A stretch of 64,000 nucleotides of DNA from Sphingobium sp. V4 (GTDB lineage: Bacteria > Pseudomonadota > Alphaproteobacteria > Sphingomonadales > Sphingomonadaceae). This document shows positions 25,236 through 35,941 of this stretch, one piece after another; positions within the stretch are counted from its first letter, which is position 1, and each line of letters opens with the position of its first letter. The stretch spans positions 2,232,001 to 2,296,000 of the forward strand of contig NZ_CP081001.1 of NCBI RefSeq assembly GCF_029590555.1. Direction: 5' to 3'. The notes beneath the pieces are model-generated. The model was not told where the DNA came from and did no database searches. It saw only the letters and a program-made list of their open reading frames with translations. The position numbers and the translations under genes are program-made.

Positions 25236-26315
25236 TTGCCGATCGACATCGCCTTTCTCGCCATCGCCGAGGCCCAGCAACTCTATCATTGGCTGCCCGC
25301 CGCGCTGGAACTGGCGCGCCGGCCCGATGTACGGGTCAGCATCTTGTCCCCTTCGGACATGATATTGGCGCTGGTGACAAGCTATGATCCAGAAGGCCGC
25401 CTGAACATCGTTCGCCTGGCGCGGCCGCCATCGCGGCCCGACTCGCTCTTCCGCCAGCCCTCGCGGCTGGCGACCCTGCTGCTCAACTTGTCCACCATCG
25501 CCCGCTTCCCGACGCTCGTGACCACCGAGATCAGCAGCGCCTGGCTCCGCCGCATACCCGGCTTCCATCCCCGCCTCATCCTCATCAAGCATGGCGCGGG
25601 CGACCGGGAGGGCGGCTACAAGAAACGCCACGCCGATTTCGACCTGACCCTGGTCGCGGGCGAAAAGGATCGCCGCCGCATGATCGAGCGCGGCCTATGC
25701 ACCGCCGAGACGGTCGCCGTCGGCGGCTATCCCAAGTTCGAACTGAAGGCGGCGCGGCAGCGCTTCTTCCCCGACGACAAGCCGCTCCTGCTCTACAATC
25801 CGCATTTCGATCCGGCGCTGTCGTCATGGATCAAGCACGGCCCCGACGTTCTGGCCGCGCTGGAGTCGCTGACCGGCTGGAACGTCATCATCGCCCCGCA
25901 CACCAAGCTGGCACGCAAGGTGCCGGCGATCACCAGCAGCGCGCCGCACATCCGGATCGACATGGGCAGCCGCCGGTCGATCGACATGAGCTATACGATG
26001 AGCGCGGACGTCTATCTGGGTGACGTATCGAGCCAGGTCTATGAGTTCCTTATCGAACCGCGCCCCTGCATCTTCCTCAACCTCGACCGGCACGACGGGT
26101 CGGGCGATGCCTTCGCCCACTGGAAGCTGGGGCAGGTCATCGAGCGGGCCGACGCCCTGCCCGCCGCCCTCGCCCGCGCGAACGACTTGCAACCGGGCTA
26201 TGTTGCTGCGCAAAAGGCGGCAATGCAGCAATCCATCGACCTGTCCCCGGTCCCCGCGTCGCAGCGCCAGGCCGACCTCATCCTGAATTTCGCGACAGCC
26301 CCCAAGGACTCATAA
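25236..26315 (+). CDS. CDP-glycerol glycerophosphotransferase-like protein (TagB/TagF family)
   Basis: 359-residue cytoplasmic GT-B-like protein. Two family landmarks are visible: LILIKHGAGDREGGYKKR (about 115-131, equivalent to the HG...K loop) and SADVYLGDVSSQVYEFL (256-272, equivalent to the DYSS segment). In Gram-positives this family adds glycerol-phosphate or ribitol-phosphate units from CDP-alcohols to teichoic acids. A sphingomonad has no teichoic acid, so the acceptor here is unknown. The start is a TTG with GGGGAAC upstream. The CDP-alcohol phosphatidyltransferase gene starts 4 bases after it, so they form an operon. Confidence 0.8.
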   Translation: MPIDIAFLAIAEAQQLYHWLPAALELARRPDVRVSILSPSDMILALVTSYDPEGRLNIVRLARPPSRPDSLFRQPSRLATLLLNLSTIARFPTLVTTEISSAWLRRIPGFHPRLILIKHGAGDREGGYKKRHADFDLTLVAGEKDRRRMIERGLCTAETVAVGGYPKFELKAARQRFFPDDKPLLLYNPHFDPALSSWIKHGPDVLAALESLTGWNVIIAPHTKLARKVPAITSSAPHIRIDMGSRRSIDMSYTMSADVYLGDVSSQVYEFLIEPRPCIFLNLDRHDGSGDAFAHWKLGQVIERADALPAALARANDLQPGYVAAQKAAMQQSIDLSPVPASQRQADLILNFATAPKDS

Positions 26316-26319
26316 CGCC

Positions 26320-27423
26320 ATGAGCCAGACGATCACCACCACCCTCGGCCCGGTCCGCCTGCTCGGCGAGAATGCGACGCCGATCTGGGGCATGTCCAAT
26401 GCCGAGCGCAACCGCCGCATGGCGGAAAGCGCGGCGAAGAACGGCAGCATACTCGCGCCAGGGCATGAACTGCTGTTCAACCTGGCCTATGCCTTCGACC
26501 CTTTGCTGCTGCGCCTCGCGCTCGAAACGCCGGGCACGCTGTTCGCCTGGGGACGGACGCCCATTGTCGGGCAGGTGCCGGTGGGCAGCGATCCGCTCGC
26601 GGCGCCGACGGTCATCGACCTGTCGGACGGCCGCAAGCTCTACAATCGCCAGCTTCGCAAGCTGGAACAGCCGATGGTGCGCGAACTCACCCCGGGCACC
26701 CGGCGCGAGATCGAGCGGCGCAGCTATTTCGGCGCCTACAAGGGCGTCACCGACCTGCTGACCAAATATCTCTGGCCCGAACTGGCGCTGGTCCTGACCC
26801 GCATCGCCGCGCAGCTGCGCATGACGCCCAACATGGTGTCGGTGATCGGCGTCACCCTCTGCCTGGTCGCAACCTTCCTCTTCGCCAAAGGGATGTACTG
26901 GACCGGATTCCTCAGCGGCTTCATCTTCATGGTGCTGGACACGGTTGACGGCAAGCTCGCCCGCTGCACCATCACCTCGTCCAAATGGGGCAATGTGATC
27001 GACCATGGCGTCGACCTGGTCCACCCGCCCTTCTGGTGGTATTTCTGGGGCACCGGCCTCGCCTATTGGGGCCTTGCGCTGTCGCCCGGCACCTTCGCCT
27101 TCATCATGACCGCCGTGATCGCCGGCTATGTGCTGCAACGGCTGATCGAGGGGATGTTCCTCAAGGACTTCAAGATGGACATCCATGTCTGGCAGCCGTT
27201 CGACAGCCAGTTCCGCCTGATCACCGCACGGCGCAACCCGAACATGGTGATCCTGTTCGTCGCGCTGCTGGCCGGGCGGCCCGACATCGGCCTGATCGCC
27301 CTCGCCTGGTGGACCATCCTTTCGCTGGTCGTCCATGCCGTGCGGCTGGCGCAGGCCTATGCCGTGCAGCGCAGCGGCAAGCCGATCGTCAGCTGGATGG
27401 ATGAAGCGGAGGCGGCGCGATGA
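26320..27423 (+). CDS. CDP-alcohol phosphatidyltransferase with extra N-terminal domain
   Basis: 367 residues. The C-terminal half is an integral membrane CDP-alcohol phosphotransferase with a complete motif D207-x2-D210-G211-x2-A214-R215-x8-G224-x3-D228-x3-D232. It transfers a phospho-alcohol from a CDP carrier to a hydroxyl acceptor. The first 130 or so residues are soluble and do not match standard phospholipid synthases. Their position recalls fusions in which a nucleotidyltransferase precedes this domain, but no nucleotide-binding motif is visible. The linker (about 108-150) is basic and helical. It overlaps the HIT gene by 4 bases. Confidence 0.85.
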   Translation: MSQTITTTLGPVRLLGENATPIWGMSNAERNRRMAESAAKNGSILAPGHELLFNLAYAFDPLLLRLALETPGTLFAWGRTPIVGQVPVGSDPLAAPTVIDLSDGRKLYNRQLRKLEQPMVRELTPGTRREIERRSYFGAYKGVTDLLTKYLWPELALVLTRIAAQLRMTPNMVSVIGVTLCLVATFLFAKGMYWTGFLSGFIFMVLDTVDGKLARCTITSSKWGNVIDHGVDLVHPPFWWYFWGTGLAYWGLALSPGTFAFIMTAVIAGYVLQRLIEGMFLKDFKMDIHVWQPFDSQFRLITARRNPNMVILFVALLAGRPDIGLIALAWWTILSLVVHAVRLAQAYAVQRSGKPIVSWMDEAEAAR

Positions 27424-27866
27424 ACGCGACAATCGAGAAGTTCGGCTGGCCAGCCACGCTGGTCGCGGCGTTCGAGCACTGGCTGGTCCTGCTCCGCCCG
27501 GCCCAGCCGACGCTGGGATCCCTGGTGCTGGCGGCGAAAAGTGACGCCACCGCCTTCGGCGACCTGCCGGCGGCGGCCCATGCCGAACTCAAGACCGTGA
27601 CCACCGTGATCGAGGCGGCGCTGGGCAAGGCGGTGGGCTACAGCAAGATCAACTATCTGATGCTGATGATGGTCGACCCGCATGTCCATTTCCATGTCAT
27701 CCCCCGCTATGAAGGGACGCGCAGCGCGGCTGGCGTGACCGTCGCGGATGCGGGCTGGCCGGGCCAGCCGGAGCTTGGCGCGGCGGTAAGACTGGACAGC
27801 GAAATGGACAGCTTGCGCGCGTTCCTCCAGGAGGGGTTCGAAAAGGAAATCACCAAGAGCGCCTGA
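27420..27866 (+). CDS. HIT-family nucleotide hydrolase/transferase
   Basis: 148-residue histidine-triad protein. The H88-V-H90-F-H92-VI triad is preceded by a strand region (KINYLMLMMVDPHVHFH), as in Fhit/HINT enzymes acting on nucleotidyl phosphoanhydrides or phosphoramidates. Co-transcription with the glycerophosphotransferase and CDP-alcohol transferase suggests processing of a nucleotide-alcohol or its CMP product, which is inference. The ATG overlaps the preceding stop. Confidence 0.85.
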   Translation: MNATIEKFGWPATLVAAFEHWLVLLRPAQPTLGSLVLAAKSDATAFGDLPAAAHAELKTVTTVIEAALGKAVGYSKINYLMLMMVDPHVHFHVIPRYEGTRSAAGVTVADAGWPGQPELGAAVRLDSEMDSLRAFLQEGFEKEITKSA

Positions 27867-27895
27867 AATTCGATATAACATATTGAATTTCAATA
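27864..27895 (+). terminator. AT-rich inverted repeat at the end of the HIT operon
   Basis: Perfect TGAAATTC (27864-27871, including the stop codon) and GAATTTCA (27885-27892) with a 13-base loop. The nested 15-base palindrome TATTGAA-T-TTCAATA spans 27881-27895, followed by GTCTTT. It is a weak candidate terminator, or an operator, in otherwise GC-rich DNA. Confidence 0.35.
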
Positions 27896-28003
27896 GTCTT
27901 TAGACCCGTCTCGGCGAACGGGAACGCGGCGTCTCGCGAGCGTGTTTTGCGCATTTTTGAATCGAAGTGCGTCAAATCATGGTTCGACGATCATCCGCCA
28001 CGG

Positions 28004-28294
28004 TCAGCCGCCGACCGTCAATTCCTCATAACAGGCCTGCGCCTCGGGCGCTGGGCCGCGCCGGGCCGGCAGCTGGATCACGCGGACCACCCGCACGCCG
28101 CTGGGATGGGGGAAGGTGATGAGGTCGCCCGCGCGCACGGGCGCGTGGGAGCGCTCCACGCGGCGGCCGTTGAGGCGGATATGCCCGTCCTCGGCCAGCT
28201 TCTGCGCGGTCGACCGGCTCTTGGAAAGGCGCGCGAACCACAGGAATTTGTCGATCCGCAGCGCCGGTCCATGGCCGGAGCCCGCGTCAGCCAT
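28004..28294 (-). CDS. S4-domain RNA-binding protein (HslR/Hsp15-like)
   Basis: 96 residues. The S4 fold begins at RIDKFLWFARLSKSRSTAQKL and continues GHIRLNGRRVERSHAPVRAGDLITF. This matches Hsp15-type proteins that bind stalled 50S-nascent chain complexes. The ATG at 28294 overlaps the helicase stop by 8 bases, so the longer frame inside the helicase gene was rejected. Coupling to an RNA helicase fits a ribosome or RNA quality-control role. Confidence 0.85.
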   Translation of the reverse strand: MADAGSGHGPALRIDKFLWFARLSKSRSTAQKLAEDGHIRLNGRRVERSHAPVRAGDLITFPHPSGVRVVRVIQLPARRGPAPEAQACYEELTVGG

Positions 28295-31082
28295 TGCGGC
28301 CCAGCAACTCGGCGAGGCCGGCAAAGGCGTTGTTGGCGGGCGCGGGGCTGCCGCCGGCCGAAGCGGTGCGCGGCCGACCGCCCTCCTTCTGGCCGCCATC
28401 CCTCTGTCCGCCCTCCTTGCCGGGGCGACGGTTGCCGCCCGGCTTGCCGCCGCGCGGCTGCTGACCATGCTGGGGGCGATCGGTGCGCGCCTTCTGCCGG
28501 CCCTTGAACGCCCAGTTGGCGCCCGCGGCAGGCGCGGCGGCGGCGACCACGTCGTCCCCGCTCTCCGTCGCCTCTGTCACTTCAACCGCTTCCGTTTCGG
28601 ACGCCGGCGCCGCGGCCGGGGCGACCGGGCGGAAACCGGCAAGGCGCATCAGTTGCAGGAAGGAGGGTTCGCTGAGACCCAGCGAAACGATCTGCGGGCT
28701 GAGCGCCGTGAAGGCTTCATTCTTCGCGATCGCCTCATGCGCGGCGCGGGCCATGCGTTCGGCCATGTCGATCCGCAGCATCTGATCGCCAAAGCCGCGG
28801 AAACCGGCGATTCGCGCACCCATCCGCGCCGGCTTCTCGCCCGCCGGGATCAGCGTGAGGCCGGGGCCCGGCAGCGGCAGGCAGGGCTTGGCGATGCGCG
28901 CCGCCAGCAGCGCCGATCGCCAGCGCGCGGCGCCGGGCTTGAGCAGGCCATGATGATAGATATCGAGCACGCCGATATCGATGCCCGCCTTGCGCAGCAG
29001 ATGGCGCTGATCCTTGTCGAGATGGCCCAGCGCCGAATCGAGTTCGGTCCGCGCGATCACGCCGCCAGCATCGGCCAACTGCGCGAAGACCGCGCGCACC
29101 ACCGGCGGCACGGCCGGATCGGCGGCGCTTTCGACCATCTTGACCAGCGGCAGCAGATGCTTCTGCTTCTGACCCTCGAACCAGGCGGCGAGGCGCGCCA
29201 CGACCTGCTTCTGCACATCCTGGCCGAGGCCCAGCAGCGCACGATCAAGCCGGATTTCGGGCGCCAGCAGGGTCGGCCCCGCCAGCAGGGTCGCCACCGG
29301 CGTCTCGCCCCAGGCGATGCCCGGCGCCTGTCCCGCCTCGTCCAGCAGCGCAAAATCCGCATCCGCCGCAGCAACCAGTTCGTCAGCCTTCACTCGCAAT
29401 ACCTTTCCAAGGCGCCGTTCCGCGGCCGCCAGCAACATCTTTCGGTCCTGATGCCGCGTAGCGGGATCAACCGAGAATCGGAAGCCGTCAAGTCGTCCGA
29501 TCGTCTCGCCATCGACACAAACGCTCCCGTCCGGCTCTACCGTGACCGGCAGGGTGCTGGCATTCTGGCCGATGTCGCGCAGCAGAACGGAGGTGCGCCG
29601 GTCGACGAATCGCTGCGTCAGCGCGGCATGGAGCGCATCCGACAACTTCTCCTCCAGCGCGCGGGTCCGCTCCGCCATCTCGGCGGGATGGGCCAGCCAG
29701 TCGGGCCGGTGCGCGATGTAGGACCAGGTCCGCGCCGCCGCGATCCGGCCCGACAGCGTGTCGATGTCGCCCTGCACCGAATCGAGCCGGGCGAGATTCT
29801 GCGCGAACCAGTCGCGCGGGATATGGCCGGTCCCTTCGGACAGGAAGCGCCAGATGCGGCCGACGGTGCGGGCATGATGCTCCGCGCCCAGCTTCTGGAA
29901 ATCGGGCAGGCCGCTGGCCGCCCATAACCGTTCCACCTGCCTCTGCCCCCTGGCGCGTTCGATGACGAGGGGATCGTCGGCCAGCCGTTTCAGCACGGCA
30001 TGGTCCACCGCTTCCGGAGCGGCACGCAGTTCGGGGCGCTCGGGCTTCTGTTCCAGGTCGAAGAGCAGATGGTCGAGCCGGTCGGTGCGCGGCGTGCCGT
30101 TGCGCCAGAATAAGTGTTCCACCGGCGGGAAGCGGTGCGCCTCGATCGCTTCGATCTCCTCGGGGGTGAAGGCGGCGTCGCCATCTTCATGGCCCAGGCT
30201 GCCGAAGGTGCCATCCTTGTGATGCCGGCCGGCCCGCCCGGCGATCTGCGCCATCTCGCTGACGGTCAGGCGCCGGGTGCGCCGGCCATCGAACTTGCGC
30301 AGCGAGGCGAAGGCGACATGGGCGACATCGAGGTTGAGCCCCATGCCGATCGCGTCGGTGGCGACCAGATAGTCGACCTCGCCATTCAGGAACATCTGCA
30401 CCTGCGCGTTGCGGGTTCGGGGCGACAGGGCGCCCATCACCACCGCCGCGCCGCCCCGGAACCGGCGGAGCATTTCGGCCACGGCGTAAACCTCCTCCGC
30501 GGAGAAGGCGACGATGGCCGAGCGCTTGGGCAGGCGGGAGAGCTTCTTCGCGCCGGCATAGGAGAGGGTGGAAAAGCGAGGGCGGCCGATGATTTCCACG
30601 TCGGGCACCAATGCCTTGACGACGCGGCTGATGGTCGCGGAGCCAAGGATCATCGTTTCCTCGCGCCCACGCGCGCGCAGCAGCCGGTCGGTGAAGATAT
30701 GGCCGCGCTCAGGGTCCGATCCCAATTGCGCCTCGTCCAGCGCGACGAAGGCGAAATCTTCCTTCGTGCCGCTTTCCCGTCCTCCACCGATTGTTTGTGC
30801 GGCTCCGGCCTGCCGGCCTGCGCCGATCGGCATGGATTCCGCCGTGCAGAGGAAATAGCGCGCTTGCGGCGGCACGATCTTTTCCTCGCCGGTGACGAGC
30901 GCAACCTGTTGCGGCCCCTTGATCGCGACGACGCGGTCATAGACCTCGCGCGCCAGCAGGCGCAGCGGAAATCCCATCATGCCGCTGCTATGGCCGCACA
31001 TCCGCTCGACGGCGAGGTGGGTCTTGCCGGTGTTGGTCGGTCCCAGGACGGCAGTGACGGAAGAACGGGCGAACTGGGCCAT
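28287..31082 (-). CDS. Suv3-type DExH RNA helicase
   Basis: 931-residue superfamily 2 helicase resembling the mitochondrial degradosome helicase Suv3. Motif I is LGPTNTGKTHLA, motif II FVALDEAQ, motif III ILGSATI. Motif V is ATDAIGMGLNLDVAHVAF and motif VI EMAQIAGRAGRHHKDG. A long helical C-terminal region follows. The last 100 or so residues are Gly/Arg/Lys/Pro-rich and disordered (RGGKPGGNRRPGKEGGQRDG), a likely RNA-binding tail. The ATG at 31082 puts AQFARSSVTAVLGPTNTGKT at the start, as expected. Divergent from the M23 peptidase gene. Confidence 0.88.
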   Translation of the reverse strand: MAQFARSSVTAVLGPTNTGKTHLAVERMCGHSSGMMGFPLRLLAREVYDRVVAIKGPQQVALVTGEEKIVPPQARYFLCTAESMPIGAGRQAGAAQTIGGGRESGTKEDFAFVALDEAQLGSDPERGHIFTDRLLRARGREETMILGSATISRVVKALVPDVEIIGRPRFSTLSYAGAKKLSRLPKRSAIVAFSAEEVYAVAEMLRRFRGGAAVVMGALSPRTRNAQVQMFLNGEVDYLVATDAIGMGLNLDVAHVAFASLRKFDGRRTRRLTVSEMAQIAGRAGRHHKDGTFGSLGHEDGDAAFTPEEIEAIEAHRFPPVEHLFWRNGTPRTDRLDHLLFDLEQKPERPELRAAPEAVDHAVLKRLADDPLVIERARGQRQVERLWAASGLPDFQKLGAEHHARTVGRIWRFLSEGTGHIPRDWFAQNLARLDSVQGDIDTLSGRIAAARTWSYIAHRPDWLAHPAEMAERTRALEEKLSDALHAALTQRFVDRRTSVLLRDIGQNASTLPVTVEPDGSVCVDGETIGRLDGFRFSVDPATRHQDRKMLLAAAERRLGKVLRVKADELVAAADADFALLDEAGQAPGIAWGETPVATLLAGPTLLAPEIRLDRALLGLGQDVQKQVVARLAAWFEGQKQKHLLPLVKMVESAADPAVPPVVRAVFAQLADAGGVIARTELDSALGHLDKDQRHLLRKAGIDIGVLDIYHHGLLKPGAARWRSALLAARIAKPCLPLPGPGLTLIPAGEKPARMGARIAGFRGFGDQMLRIDMAERMARAAHEAIAKNEAFTALSPQIVSLGLSEPSFLQLMRLAGFRPVAPAAAPASETEAVEVTEATESGDDVVAAAAPAAGANWAFKGRQKARTDRPQHGQQPRGGKPGGNRRPGKEGGQRDGGQKEGGRPRTASAGGSPAPANNAFAGLAELLGRNG

Positions 31083-31276
31083 ATCCGCCCTATGTCGGGG
31101 ATGGAACGGCACGGGGCAAGGAGATTCGGCGGTTCCCGCCGCTTTGCCGAGCCTGTCGGGCCGGCGGCACGATTCGTCGCACGACCGAGTCGATGCGCCC
31201 CATCTTAAATTGACTTTAACCCTGCCCGGTTCACAACGGCCGCCCCGACGCATAGAGCGGGAATGTCGGGTCGGCG

Positions 31277-32836
31277 GTGACGATATCACCCTTGGGGGTC
31301 GCGGGTTTGTTTCAGGATAGCCAGTTCGGGTCTCAGCAGGGCGGCGCGTCCATATCCCTGTGGCTCGCGGACTCGCTGCGCCGCGAAGCCCCGGCGCGGC
31401 CGCAGGACTGGCGCAGCCGGTTGCGCGACTGGGCCGACGAAGTGGACCTCGTTCCCGACCTGGGCCAGCGCATCGGCAGCCTTACCTGGTTCCGTGGCCT
31501 TGCCACCTGTTTCGGCCTCTGCGCCACCGCCCTCTACCTGTCCCCCGGTTTTCAGCCCGTACCCGGCGCGCCCGGCCCGACGCTGAGCGACGCGCATTAT
31601 GACGAGGTGCGCAGCCAGATGATCACGCCGCTGGCGCTGGGCGCGGACAGTGGCCGGCACATGGGACCGACCGATGCGGTGCAGCCGCTGCGCCAGACGC
31701 CCGAGCGCCCGCAGATCGAACTCAACGCCCAGGTCGGCAGCAGCGACACCCTGCCCCGCGCCCTGTCGCGCGCAGGGGTCAGCGGCGGCGATGTCGCGAC
31801 CGTCATGGCGATGGTCGGCGGCGACATCGGCGCGGGCGTGAAGCCGGGCACGCGGCTCGACATCGTGCTGGGCCGCCGCGCCAGCCGCGACCGCCCCCGG
31901 CCGCTCGACAAGCTGGCCTTCCGCGCGCGGCTCGACCTCGGCGTCGAACTGACCCGCAATGGCAACGTGCTGTCGGTGAAGCGCATCCCCATCCGCGTCG
32001 ACAATACGCCGCTGCGCATCCAGGGCGTGGTCGGCGAAAGCATCTATCGCTCGGCCCGCGCGGCTGGCGCCCCGCCCAAGGCGGTGCAGGCCTTCCTGCG
32101 CGTCATCGCCGGCCAGGTCGACCTGGGCGGTATCGGTGCGGGCGACCGTTATGACATCGTCACCGAATATCGCCGCGCCGAAACCGGCGACGTGGAGGTC
32201 GGCGAGCTGCTTTATGCGGGCCTGAAGCGCGCGCGCGGCAAGGCGATCGACATGCTGAAATGGACCAGCAACGGCCGCACCGAATGGTTCGAGGCGTCAG
32301 GCGTCGGCGAACGGCGCGGCGTGCTCTCTTCGCCGGTGGCCGGGCGCATGTCGTCGGGCTATGGCCAGCGCCGCCATCCGATATTGGGCTATACGCGGAT
32401 GCACGCCGGCATCGATTTCGCCGCCCGCTACGGCTCCCCCATCTATGCCGTGACCGACGGCGTCGTCGGCTTCGCCGGGCGGCATGGCGGTCATGGCAAT
32501 TATGTCCGCATCCAGCATGGCGGCGGCCTCGCCACCGGCTATGCCCATATGAGCCGCATCGCCGCCGTGCCGGGCCAGCGGGTGCGGCGGGGCCAGGTGA
32601 TCGGCTATGTCGGATCGACCGGCCTGTCGACCGGGCCGCATCTTCATTATGAGCTGTATCGCGGCGGCGCGACGGTCAATCCGCTGTCGGTCAAGTTCAC
32701 GACGACGGCGCAGCTGGCCGGTCGAGACCTGACCGCCTTCCGCGCGCGGCTGGCCCAATATCGGAGCCTGCGCGTGGGGCTGCATGACGGTTTCGCACAG
32801 GCGCCGTCGGCCGTGCCGGTGGCGAAAGGCAAGTAG
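31277..32836 (+). CDS. M23-family (LytM) murein metallopeptidase
   Basis: 519 residues. One membrane segment near residue 75 (GLATCFGLCATALYLSPGF) separates a cytoplasmic N-terminus from a periplasmic part. A LysM-like or OapA-like region and linker precede the C-terminal peptidase with zinc ligands in GYTRMHAGIDFA and TGPHLHYELY. Similar proteins cleave or scaffold peptidoglycan cross-links during envelope growth. The GTG at 31277 is the longest start; a TTG 15 bases later is possible. It is followed by the nucleotidyltransferase at 32903 on the same strand. Confidence 0.85.
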   Translation: MTISPLGVAGLFQDSQFGSQQGGASISLWLADSLRREAPARPQDWRSRLRDWADEVDLVPDLGQRIGSLTWFRGLATCFGLCATALYLSPGFQPVPGAPGPTLSDAHYDEVRSQMITPLALGADSGRHMGPTDAVQPLRQTPERPQIELNAQVGSSDTLPRALSRAGVSGGDVATVMAMVGGDIGAGVKPGTRLDIVLGRRASRDRPRPLDKLAFRARLDLGVELTRNGNVLSVKRIPIRVDNTPLRIQGVVGESIYRSARAAGAPPKAVQAFLRVIAGQVDLGGIGAGDRYDIVTEYRRAETGDVEVGELLYAGLKRARGKAIDMLKWTSNGRTEWFEASGVGERRGVLSSPVAGRMSSGYGQRRHPILGYTRMHAGIDFAARYGSPIYAVTDGVVGFAGRHGGHGNYVRIQHGGGLATGYAHMSRIAAVPGQRVRRGQVIGYVGSTGLSTGPHLHYELYRGGATVNPLSVKFTTTAQLAGRDLTAFRARLAQYRSLRVGLHDGFAQAPSAVPVAKGK

Positions 32837-32902
32837 ATTTCCGTTCGGGGCCGGGATGCAAAAGCCCTTCCCGCCTCTCCGCCACTCCGCTAACGCGCGG
32901 CG

Positions 32903-33685
32903 ATGACAGGTTCCGTTACCGCCATCCTGCTCGCAGGCGCGCGCCCCATTCCCGATCCGCTGGCGCTGGCCGCCGGCGTGCCGGTCAAGCCGCTCGCCCC
33001 GGTCGCGGGCGAGCCGATGATCAATCGCCCGGCGCGGGCCTTGCTCGACCATCCCGCCATCGACCGGCTGATCGTCCTGACCCAGCGGCCCGACGTCTTT
33101 GCCGCCGATCCCGCCACCGCCTGGCTCGCGGCGCATCCGCGCGTCACCTTCGAGACGGGGGGGCAGGGAATCGCCTCCTCGCTGCTGGCGCTGATGGCGG
33201 CGGACGACCTGCCCTTCCCGTTGCTGCTGACCACGGCCGACCATGTGCTGCTCGACACGGCGATGCTGGACCAGTTCGTGGGCGAAGCGGCAGGCGCGGA
33301 CATTGCCGTCGCCATGGTGGAGCGGGCGACGCTGCTGGCGCGCTATCCGCAGTCGCGGCGCACCTGGCTGAAATTTCGCGACGGCTGGTGGTCGGGCGCC
33401 AACATCTTCTGGTTCGGCAGCACCAGGGCGCGCCCGGTCATCGCACTGTGGCAGGAGGTGGAGCAGGACCGCAAGAAGGGCTGGAAGATATTGTCCGCCT
33501 TCGGCCCGGTCGCGCTGATCGGCGCGCTGCTGCGCATATCGACACTGCGCGGCGGGATCGCGCGGATCGGCCGGCGCTTCGGCCTTGCCGCGCGGCTGGT
33601 GGCGATGGACAGCCCCGAAGCCTGCATCGACGCGGACAAGCCCGCCGACGTAACGCTGATCGAATCGATCCTCGCCCGGCGTTAG
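32903..33685 (+). CDS. MobA-like nucleotidyltransferase family protein
   Basis: 260 residues with a GT-A-like nucleotidyltransferase fold. The N-terminal LLAGARP and the later VPVKPLAPVAGEPMINR stand for the glycine-rich loop and catalytic lysine, and TTADHVLLD is the metal-binding segment. The glycine loop is looser than in MobA or IspD, so the substrate could be an alcohol-phosphate with CTP. The C-terminal third (WWSGANIFWFG onward) matches none of the well-known members. Its proximity to CDP-alcohol enzymes 5-7 kb upstream suggests it makes an activated alcohol, but this is inference. Confidence 0.75.
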   Translation: MTGSVTAILLAGARPIPDPLALAAGVPVKPLAPVAGEPMINRPARALLDHPAIDRLIVLTQRPDVFAADPATAWLAAHPRVTFETGGQGIASSLLALMAADDLPFPLLLTTADHVLLDTAMLDQFVGEAAGADIAVAMVERATLLARYPQSRRTWLKFRDGWWSGANIFWFGSTRARPVIALWQEVEQDRKKGWKILSAFGPVALIGALLRISTLRGGIARIGRRFGLAARLVAMDSPEACIDADKPADVTLIESILARR

Positions 33686-33692
33686 ACAGACT

Positions 33693-35030
33693 CTAGCCGC
33701 CGCTTGTCACGGCCCGGCGGCTGGCGAGGCCCATCATCGTGAAGCCGGCGAGCGATGCTGCGATATTCGCCATCGCCGCACCCTGCGTGCCGTAGAGCGG
33801 CAGCAGCGCGGATTGCAGGCCGAGCAGCAGCAGGGTCGAAACGAAGGATATCCGCAGCGACAGGCCAGCCCGGTCAGTCGCCATCAGCAGCGGGCGGTAG
33901 CTGACCCCGATCAGGTCGATGCAGGCGGCGACGCCCAGCATCAGCAGCAGCGGATAGGCAGGCAGGAATTCCCGTCCCGCGATCAGCCCCAGCAAAGGAT
34001 GGCCAATCATCAGGATCAGGCCGATGATGACCGCGCCGACCACCAGCGCCAGGCGGTTCGTCCGCCGGAACAGGGCGCCCAGCGCTTCGCGCCCGTGGCT
34101 GCTGGTCCGCGAGAGTTCGACGAAGATGCTGCGCGACAGGAGGCTGGAAATCTTGGTCAGCGAATTGGCGAGCTGGTTGGCGAGGCGATAGAGACCCGCC
34201 CCGGTCGGGCCGACGAAGGCGCCGACGATCAGCACCGCGACCTGCTGCCCGATGGAGGACAGGCTGGTCTGGAGGTTGGTGGCGGTGAGGAAGCCGATGA
34301 TGCCGGGATTTTCGGCACGCGCATCCAGCGCACGGCCTGCGCGCCAGTCGCCGATCCGCCCGCGCCCGACCCGGAACGCCAGCCACCAGTAGCTCAAGGC
34401 GCAGAGCAATTCGGCAAAGGCCCAGGCGATCAGGAAGCCGGTGATGCCGGGCATGAGCGCCAGCGCGACCAGCGCGCCGATCATGCGGCCGACAGGGATC
34501 ATGGTTTCGGCGAAGGCAGCCGAATCGAACCGGTCGAACAGGCGCAATATGCCGGTGGGGCTGGATCGGATGGTGATCATCATCACCATGCAGAACAGCC
34601 AGACCTGCCAGCCCATGCCCGGTCCCAGTTCCAGCGCCCGGCCGAAGAAGAGGATGATGGCCGCCGCGATTCCACCGCCCGCGACCGCCGATGCAAGGTC
34701 GATCAGGATGCAGAAGCGCAGCACGCGATTGAGCGCGTCGCCATCGTTCGCGGCGAGATGGGGCTGGCCATAGCGCACGACGATCTGCCAGCTGTCGAAG
34801 CTGACCAGCGCCTTGATGACGTTGGCGGCGCTCAGCACCAGCGCGAAGCGGCCGAAATCGGCGACGCCGAGCGTGCGGGTGACGATGGCGAGATAGGCGA
34901 GGCTGAGCACCGCGCCCACGCCCTTGCCGCCCAGCAGCCAGCCGGTATTGGCCAGGATGCGGGCGAAGCCGTCGCCCGCCGCGCCCGATCCGCGCTTGAA
35001 CATCACTATGACTGCCGGCCTTTCCGTCAT
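33693..35030 (-). CDS. Oligosaccharide flippase family protein (Wzx-like)
   Basis: About 445 residues with a dozen or more hydrophobic segments, typical of the MOP/Wzx flippase superfamily that moves lipid-linked glycans across the inner membrane. The N-terminus GWLLGGKGVGAVLSLAYLAIVTRTLG fits family patterns (LARTLG-type loop after the first helices). The start is uncertain: ATGs at 35030 and 35003, or upstream codons. It converges with the nucleotidyltransferase gene and is divergent from the cytidylyltransferase gene at 35171. Confidence 0.85.
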   Translation of the reverse strand: MTERPAVIVMFKRGSGAAGDGFARILANTGWLLGGKGVGAVLSLAYLAIVTRTLGVADFGRFALVLSAANVIKALVSFDSWQIVVRYGQPHLAANDGDALNRVLRFCILIDLASAVAGGGIAAAIILFFGRALELGPGMGWQVWLFCMVMMITIRSSPTGILRLFDRFDSAAFAETMIPVGRMIGALVALALMPGITGFLIAWAFAELLCALSYWWLAFRVGRGRIGDWRAGRALDARAENPGIIGFLTATNLQTSLSSIGQQVAVLIVGAFVGPTGAGLYRLANQLANSLTKISSLLSRSIFVELSRTSSHGREALGALFRRTNRLALVVGAVIIGLILMIGHPLLGLIAGREFLPAYPLLLMLGVAACIDLIGVSYRPLLMATDRAGLSLRISFVSTLLLLGLQSALLPLYGTQGAAMANIAASLAGFTMMGLASRRAVTSGG

Positions 35031-35170
35031 GGCATCGCAGAGGCATGGCATCCGTTCGTCCAGGCTCGGCCCGAATGGCGCGCTGCTCTCCATGCGCGCT
35101 TTAGGCGAGCGCCGGGTCGAGTGCAAACGCCGCCTTTTTTTGGGCAAAATTGCCCGTTAACAGCGCGCCC

Positions 35171-35941
35171 ATGACCATCAGCAAAGCCATCATCCTGTCC
35201 GCCGGCCAGGGGTCGCGCCTCCTGCCGCTGACCCGCGACATTCCCAAATGCCTGATCGACTTCAACGGCCGCAGCCTCATCAGCTGGCAGGTCGCGGCGC
35301 TGGCGGCCAATGGCGTGACCGACATCGTCGTCGTCACCGGGTTCCGCACCGAGCGGGTCGAGGATCATGCGCTCCAGATCTACCGCGAAAGCGGCGTGCG
35401 CATCCGCACCGTGTTCAACCCCTTCTTCCAGGTCGCCGACAATCTGGGCACCTGCTGGATCGCGCGCGAGGAAATGCACCGGGACTTCATCATCCTGAAC
35501 GGCGACACCATCGTATCGGACGAGATCGTCGCCCGGCTGATCGCAGGCGCGCAGGACGCAATCACCGTCACCGTCGACGTCAAGGCGAAGGGTGAATATG
35601 ATGATGACGACATGAAGGTGAACCGCGATGCCAGCGGGCGCCTGCACGCCATCGGCAAGCGGCTGCTGCCGCCCGACACCAACGCCGAATCGATCGGGAT
35701 GCTGGCCTTCACCGGCGAAGGTCCGGCGATCTTCCGCAACCAGATCGACCAGATGATGCGCACGCCCGAAGGCGTCGAACGCTGGTACCTCCGCGCGATC
35801 GACATCATCGCCAAGGGCAATCGCGTCGGCACCGTCTCGATCGAGGGGCTGGACTGGCAGGAGGTCGACTTCCCGCAGGATGTGGAGGCGGCCAAGGCGC
35901 TGACCGCCGCATGGGTGGCCGAGGGGCGCTACGCGAAATAG
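35171..35941 (+). CDS. LicC-like phosphocholine/alcohol-phosphate cytidylyltransferase family protein
   Basis: 256-residue nucleotidyltransferase with AIILSAGQGSRLLPLTRDIPKCLIDFNG at the start, combining the glycine-rich loop and catalytic lysine. A metal-binding aspartate is in FIILNGDTIVSDE, and WQEVDFPQDVEAAK is at the end. This arrangement resembles LicC and other enzymes that make CDP-choline or NDP-activated small alcohols or sugars. The ATG at 35171 was used instead of an in-frame TTG 21 bases earlier. Together with the flippase and the CDP-alcohol enzymes it suggests envelope decoration. Confidence 0.82.
   Translation: MTISKAIILSAGQGSRLLPLTRDIPKCLIDFNGRSLISWQVAALAANGVTDIVVVTGFRTERVEDHALQIYRESGVRIRTVFNPFFQVADNLGTCWIAREEMHRDFIILNGDTIVSDEIVARLIAGAQDAITVTVDVKAKGEYDDDDMKVNRDASGRLHAIGKRLLPPDTNAESIGMLAFTGEGPAIFRNQIDQMMRTPEGVERWYLRAIDIIAKGNRVGTVSIEGLDWQEVDFPQDVEAAKALTAAWVAEGRYAK

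Follow-up and report, generated by a model that had tools for sequence, protein, structure and literature searches.

Six genes in a stretch of Sphingobium sp. V4 DNA (the window; 64,000 nucleotides of contig NZ_CP081001.1) encode a TagF-like transferase, a CDP (cytidine diphosphate)-alcohol phosphotransferase, a HIT hydrolase, two nucleotidyltransferases and a flippase. What do they make together? A reading of the letters alone (the sequence-only reading) had proposed that they act jointly on a phospho-alcohol, with a phosphodiester-linked glycan or a novel sphingolipid headgroup among the possible products. We found that all six genes have a homologue inside a single 17-gene stretch of Caulobacter vibrioides DSM 9893 (locus L118). 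Judging from sequence, the six are very probably the headgroup-building part of the ceramide phosphoglycerate pathway in its sphingomonad version. The product is likely to be ceramide phosphoglycerate (CPG) or ceramide diphosphoglycerate (CPG2), and not a teichoic acid or an ordinary phospholipid.

Joint action on a phospho-alcohol is very probable, with a cytidylyltransferase, a CDP-alcohol transferase and a flippase present, but no new pathway is at hand, as the genes match that of Caulobacter (PMC11324152 and PMC12275187). The locus is best seen as the sphingomonad form of a pathway described before, and already predicted for Sphingomonas wittichii in 2024 (PMC11324152). The sphingolipid option fits, without the novelty. 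We found nothing pointing to a phosphodiester-linked glycan; the predicted phospho-alcohol is phosphoglycerate.

The six genes and their arrangement

The six genes span 10.7 kb (25236-35941):

25236..26315, + strand: TagF-like GT-B transferase of the CC_1167 family; first gene of the operon
26320..27423, + strand: CpgA homologue (CC_1159), CDP-alcohol phosphotransferase; PF01066 and similarity to L118 CpgA
27420..27866, + strand: HIT hydrolase, homologue of CC_1157; PF01230 and similarity to L118 HIT
32903..33685, + strand: MobA-like nucleotidyltransferase, homologue of CC_1153; PF12804, 35% identical to the L118 protein (E 2e-35)
33693..35147, - strand: MOP-type flippase, homologue of CC_1166; PF01943/PF13440, 29% identical to the L118 flippase (E 4e-39)
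35171..35941, + strand: CpgD homologue (CC_1152), LicC-like, predicted CTP (cytidine triphosphate):phosphoglycerate cytidylyltransferase; 52% identical to L118 CpgD

Open reading frames (ORFs) and Pfam matches bear out the presence of the six named genes, three of them in a tight operon. The genes are real and are conserved for the most part in the genus. The TagF-like gene is separated from cpgA by a 4-base gap, and cpgA and the HIT gene overlap by 4 bases. The cpgD ORF is open from 35150; the ATG at 35171 is the start that agrees with its CpgD relatives.

Match to the Caulobacter phosphosphingolipid cluster

The L118 stretch was retrieved by scanning named genomes with a CpgA alignment. Its 17 genes agree with the published order of CC_1152-CC_1168, and CC numbers were assigned by that order and by the domains described in PMC11324152. 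Pfam searches showed the expected domains in CpgB, CC_1153 and CC_1158, and gave no match for L118 CpgC.

In Caulobacter, CpgB makes ceramide-1-phosphate and CpgD (CC_1152) converts CTP and phosphoglycerate to CDP-glycerate, both shown biochemically; the need for CpgD is also supported by genetics. Genetics further shows that CpgC is required for CPG, and that CpgA (CC_1159) and CC_1153 are required for CPG2 (PMC11324152, PMC12275187). The flippase CC_1166 is placed among the transport genes by PMC11324152.

The window thus shares homologues of six of the 17 cluster genes within 10.7 kb. In contrast to Caulobacter, the Sphingobium Spt, AcpR, CerS, CpgC, CpgB-like and LptF/G genes are scattered elsewhere in the genome, the TagF-like gene is a paralogue lying directly 5' of cpgA, cpgA and the HIT gene overlap, and CpgB is a distant match. 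A scattered arrangement is also reported for S. wittichii, where 16 of the 17 genes are stated to have orthologues, over 6 regions (PMC11324152, section 9, 2024).

Further pathway genes were found outside the window. Spt (52%), CpgC (44%) and CerS (47%) match the Caulobacter proteins. The AcpR match is weak (34%, E 6e-7) and adjoins Spt, with CpgC approximately 2 kb beyond. A CpgB-like kinase, also a weak match (30%, E 2.7e-19), gains support from its position near CerS and LptF/G; CerS, LptG, LptF and this kinase fall within ~6.4 kb (G000:C1:2319101-2325509; L170). A search of the whole genome gave just two LptF/LptG proteins, both near CerS. This position looks as if the Lpt machinery may carry the sphingolipid here.

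CpgD and CpgA

We found that the window CpgD is 52% identical to L118 CpgD over residues 1-245 of 256. All nine of R16, K26, N90, T93, N110, G111, D112, S170 and W201 are retained. These residues are catalytic or touch CTP, magnesium-bound water or glycerate, the glycerate contacts being N90, N110 and S170 (PMC13228409, PMC12275187). T88, which makes its contact through its backbone carbonyl (PMC13228409), is replaced by alanine in the window protein. The LicC-like protein is CpgD, predicted to make CDP-glycerate.

The window CpgA matches PF01066 (33.9 bits), is 41.5% identical to L118 CpgA, and is the sole match at E<=1e-20 in its own genome. The sequence-only reading had noted a complete set of CDP-alcohol transferase catalytic residues, and the motif is indeed invariant in 23 sequences. 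In fold comparisons, archaeal AF2299 and IPCT-DIPPS came out on top, and phosphatidylinositol phosphate synthases were also found.

Linkage and co-occurrence across genomes

CpgA and CpgD occur together. All genome counts include the Sphingobium sp. V4 genome itself. Among 190 genomes of the class, with CpgA counted at E<=1e-20, CpgA was found in 13 and CpgD in 14; 13 had both, none had CpgA alone, and one (G147; match 31%, E 4e-21) had CpgD alone (Fisher 3e-19, kinship ignored). Among 61 relatives, where CpgA was counted only above 200 bits and weaker CDP-alcohol enzyme matches were left out, CpgA was present in 40, CpgD in 41, both in 40, CpgD alone in 1 and neither in 20.

The sequence-only reading had called for a comparison of synteny, and the neighborhood proved to be conserved in the genus and just partly so across the class. 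In the genus, the HIT gene lies directly 3' of cpgA in 33/33 cpgA-bearing genomes, and 30 of these 33 have all or part of a TagF-like gene within 1.5 kb 5' of cpgA. We examined 20 kb around cpgA in each of the three genomes without a TagF-like gene; the slot 5' of cpgA is occupied by GT4 glycosyltransferase genes in two (G003, G024) and by an FkbM-type methyltransferase gene in the third (G006). CpgD is wholly or partly within 1.5 kb of cpgA in 15/30 genus loci (in the window the distance is ~7.7 kb), and the flippase gene adjoins cpgD in 6 of the 8 genus stretches examined. In the class, five of 10 stretches around CpgD contain, per stretch, two or three of the remaining five window genes or homologues of them. 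Genome G235 has homologues of CpgA, HIT, CC_1153, the flippase and the TagF-like protein clustered together, apart from CpgD.

We also compared 80 named CpgA loci, the best 80 of 540 candidates and biased towards the query; their titles name a few other groups besides alpha-, beta- and gammaproteobacteria. The genes found within reach of CpgA were CpgC (68 loci), NTP3 (61), CerS (59), HIT (58) and CpgD (46). Absences in the shorter loci tell little because 36 of the 80 are under 20.9 kb; 44 are full-length.

The HIT and TagF-like genes

The window HIT protein matches PF01230 (24.8 bits) and is 57% identical to L118 HIT. The histidine triad motif of HIT proteins is HxHxH. The window protein carries HVHFHV, with the triad complete; in the Caulobacter homologue the first position is D.

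The label TagB/TagF-like holds for the fold and falls short at the level of the Pfam family. The window protein belongs to a fast-evolving clade of the genus and shares 38.8% identity with the CC_1167 homologue of L118. Its match to PF04464 is sub-threshold (18.7 bits; the Pfam cut-off is 22.1), and 10 of 24 aligned TagF-like members match PF04464 at E<=0.01. A PDB sequence search with the protein alone as query gave no match; a profile made from 24 TagF-like homologues finds Cps3D (E 1.9e-4). The protein has a GT-B/TagF-like fold, with TagF, TarL and Cps3D among the nearest folds. It shares the GT-B fold with these three over its whole length, and in the alignment with Cps3D its YxPH stretch is paired with YAPT and its GDxSSQ stretch with TDYSS. 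It differs from them in lying below the Pfam cut-off and in its probable substrates, which we infer to be CDP-glycerate as donor and a sphingolipid as acceptor.

The genome contains a second TagF-like copy (G000:C1:3033349-3034440; L171). As judged by eye, it adjoins GT4 glycosyltransferase and sulfotransferase genes and is possibly a separate glycolipid locus.

A proposed route to the headgroup

By analogy with Caulobacter, CpgD would join CTP and 2-phosphoglycerate to give CDP-glycerate. CPG would come from CpgB and CpgC, whose genes lie at other places in the genome. CpgA would then move phosphoglycerate from CDP-glycerate onto CPG, forming CPG2 and releasing cytidine monophosphate, as we infer here, and the CC_1153 homologue would supply a further nucleotidyl step. 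The flippase would translocate the lipid across the inner membrane. Outward transport of the lipid is probably aided by LptF/LptG, whose genes lie near CerS. Our guesses for the remaining two proteins come from linkage and fold: the HIT protein would clear or recycle a nucleotide by-product or intermediate, and the TagF-like protein would lengthen or cap the headgroup with CDP-glycerate or a different CDP-alcohol as its substrate.

Do the HIT and TagF-like genes belong to the pathway?

Several observations weigh against this reading of the locus. The matches of the flippase (29%) and the CC_1153 homologue (35%), both compared with L118, and of CpgB (30%) are distant. Neither CerR nor AasR turned up in the window or in three 20-kb stretches of the same genome, including that around Spt. 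Five of the 10 class CpgD stretches (L046, L050, L051, L052, L054) hold none of the other five genes. HIT was found in 14/190 class genomes, 9 with CpgA and 5 without. The second TagF-like copy is nearer to CC_1167 (45%), and so the window TagF-like protein is a paralogue of CC_1167 and not its one-to-one ortholog. In the 44 full-length named loci, TagF-like genes are present in 14 and HIT genes in 34, and four Pseudomonas loci (L117, L138, L141, L144) hold CpgA and CpgD with neither. This partial presence indicates that HIT and TagF-like proteins are not needed everywhere for CPG2. In addition, PMC11324152 expects CPG2 in three species found there to be without CC_1167.

It is possible, although we consider it somewhat unlikely, that the sphingolipid pathway includes no more of the six than cpgA, cpgD and the CC_1153 homologue, and that the TagF-like, HIT and flippase genes are chance neighbors serving another envelope product. 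PMC11324152 judges that CC_1157 and CC_1167 probably have nothing to do with phosphosphingolipids, also in its account of S. wittichii, where our reading differs. This is consistent with the Pseudomonas loci above, with the other genes in the TagF-like slot in 3/33 genus genomes, and with the distribution of TagF-like genes in the class, where they occur in 4 of the 190 genomes, 3 of them with CpgA (3/13 CpgA-bearing genomes). However, the HIT gene follows cpgA directly throughout the genus, and in 47 of the 58 named loci with HIT it lies between LptF2 and a CC_1158-type phosphoesterase gene. TagF-like genes are within reach of CpgA in 16/80 named loci, gamma- and betaproteobacteria included, and are also found inside the large G235 cluster; 11 of 17 TagF-like copies in named loci adjoin a flippase gene, as does the G235 copy. 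The same paper gives a cofitness of CC_1167 of 0.57 with spt and 0.54 with CC_1159, and groups CC_1166 with transport (PMC11324152).

These data hint that the CC_1157- and CC_1167-type genes, set aside so far, also belong to the pathway with the other four, and the variable slot 5' of cpgA suggests a variable headgroup step. That these genes travel with the pathway, and that a variable slot precedes cpgA, is what is new here, and it is modest. We found no mutant of CC_1157 or CC_1167 in the literature, the supplements of PMC11324152 excluded, and searching for CCNA_01225 gave no paper. CC_1167 is named in two papers, the Caulobacter study and one on meningococcal typing; CC_1157 is named in 34, and among the 20 of these that were listed, most of those other than the Caulobacter study deal with meningococci.

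A more speculative extension, which we hold to be rather unlikely, is that the TagF-like and HIT proteins are true headgroup enzymes. CDP-glycerate would then feed both CpgA and the TagF-like protein to build a longer or capped poly(phosphoglycerate) chain on ceramide, and the hot spot before cpgA would set a species-specific headgroup. If true, this would be a teichoic-acid-like chain on a Gram-negative sphingolipid.

Other explanations

A teichoic-acid-like or capsule polymer, made from CDP-glycerol by the TagF-like enzyme with the flippase acting as Wzx, is improbable. TagF, TarL and Cps3D are among the nearest folds and profile matches, but the cytidylyltransferase is of the CpgD type, the linked partners elsewhere are ceramide genes, and most CpgA loci are without a TagF-like gene; for a capsule polymerase near the six genes, the check covered the ORF list only.

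We consider it very improbable that the locus is a split IPCT/DIPPS, with CDP-inositol as the route to a di-inositol-phosphate-like solute or lipid. The two systems have a common logic, a cytidylyltransferase plus a CDP-alcohol transferase, and AF2299 and IPCT-DIPPS are the top folds for CpgA. In the fused IPCT/DIPPS model NF041135, one half is matched by the CpgD-like protein (E 2.6e-16) and the other by the CpgA-like protein (E 1e-7). However, the scores of 59.6 and 31.3 bits are far under the model cut-off of 580 bits, and both proteins are nearer to Caulobacter CpgD and CpgA. CpgD retains its glycerate contacts, and many clusters around CpgD and CpgA contain ceramide genes. Unlike the archaeal enzymes, the window has separate proteins, with glycerate predicted in place of inositol, and a lipid acceptor.

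Ordinary phospholipid synthesis is scarcely credible: PF01066 is common to phosphatidyl transferases and the fold to phosphatidylinositol phosphate synthases, but the window enzyme is nearest CpgA and not the ordinary synthases, which answers a doubt raised by the sequence-only reading, and CpgA-type proteins are patchy (13/190 class genomes) and follow CpgD, unlike housekeeping enzymes. We rejected these three explanations.

Neighboring genes and additional observations

Between the HIT and MobA-like genes lie genes for an S4-domain protein, a helicase and an M23 peptidase, for which we saw no link to the six genes. The S4-domain ORF (28004-28468) and the helicase ORF (28287-31289) run on one strand and, as listed, share 182 bases, and the true start of the S4-domain ORF is probably further inside it. 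A scan expected to give 0.4 promoter-like and 1.8 terminator-like sites gave one and seven, respectively. The promoter-like site is inside the TagF-like gene, and three of the terminator-like sites are overlapping stems past the HIT gene (27925-27952). We give these sites no weight.

A second CpgA-like CDP-alcohol transferase is present in 19/80 named loci, mostly between LptG2 and CerS (L066, L067, L069, L070, L071, L073, L080, L082, L085, L086, L094, L095, L101, L104, L112, L125, L130, L133 and L134). G246 also carries one (L048:14028-15410), and there is none in the Caulobacter stretch L118. PMC11324152 suggests a further enzyme for the CPG step, and the second transferase could be that enzyme.

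One genome of the same genus, G034, has no CpgA or CpgD match. Its 7.2-kb contig C270 (L173) carries CpgB-CpgC-NTP3-flippase and a cut-off TagF-like gene. The G034 CpgB (44%) and CpgC (52%) are nearer to those of Caulobacter than are the proteins of its relatives. The contig may be contamination or a transfer, which are indistinguishable here.

Implications

CPG2 supports the viability of Caulobacter without lipopolysaccharide (LPS) (PMC12275187), and it is the presumed polymyxin target in that organism (PMC11324152). Sphingomonas koreensis is cited as LPS-free by PMC11324152. With a conserved sphingomonad version, the pathway could be tested in a group cited as LPS-free, and the CC_1157-type HIT and CC_1167-type TagF-like proteins would be two candidates for as yet unassigned steps of CPG2 synthesis.

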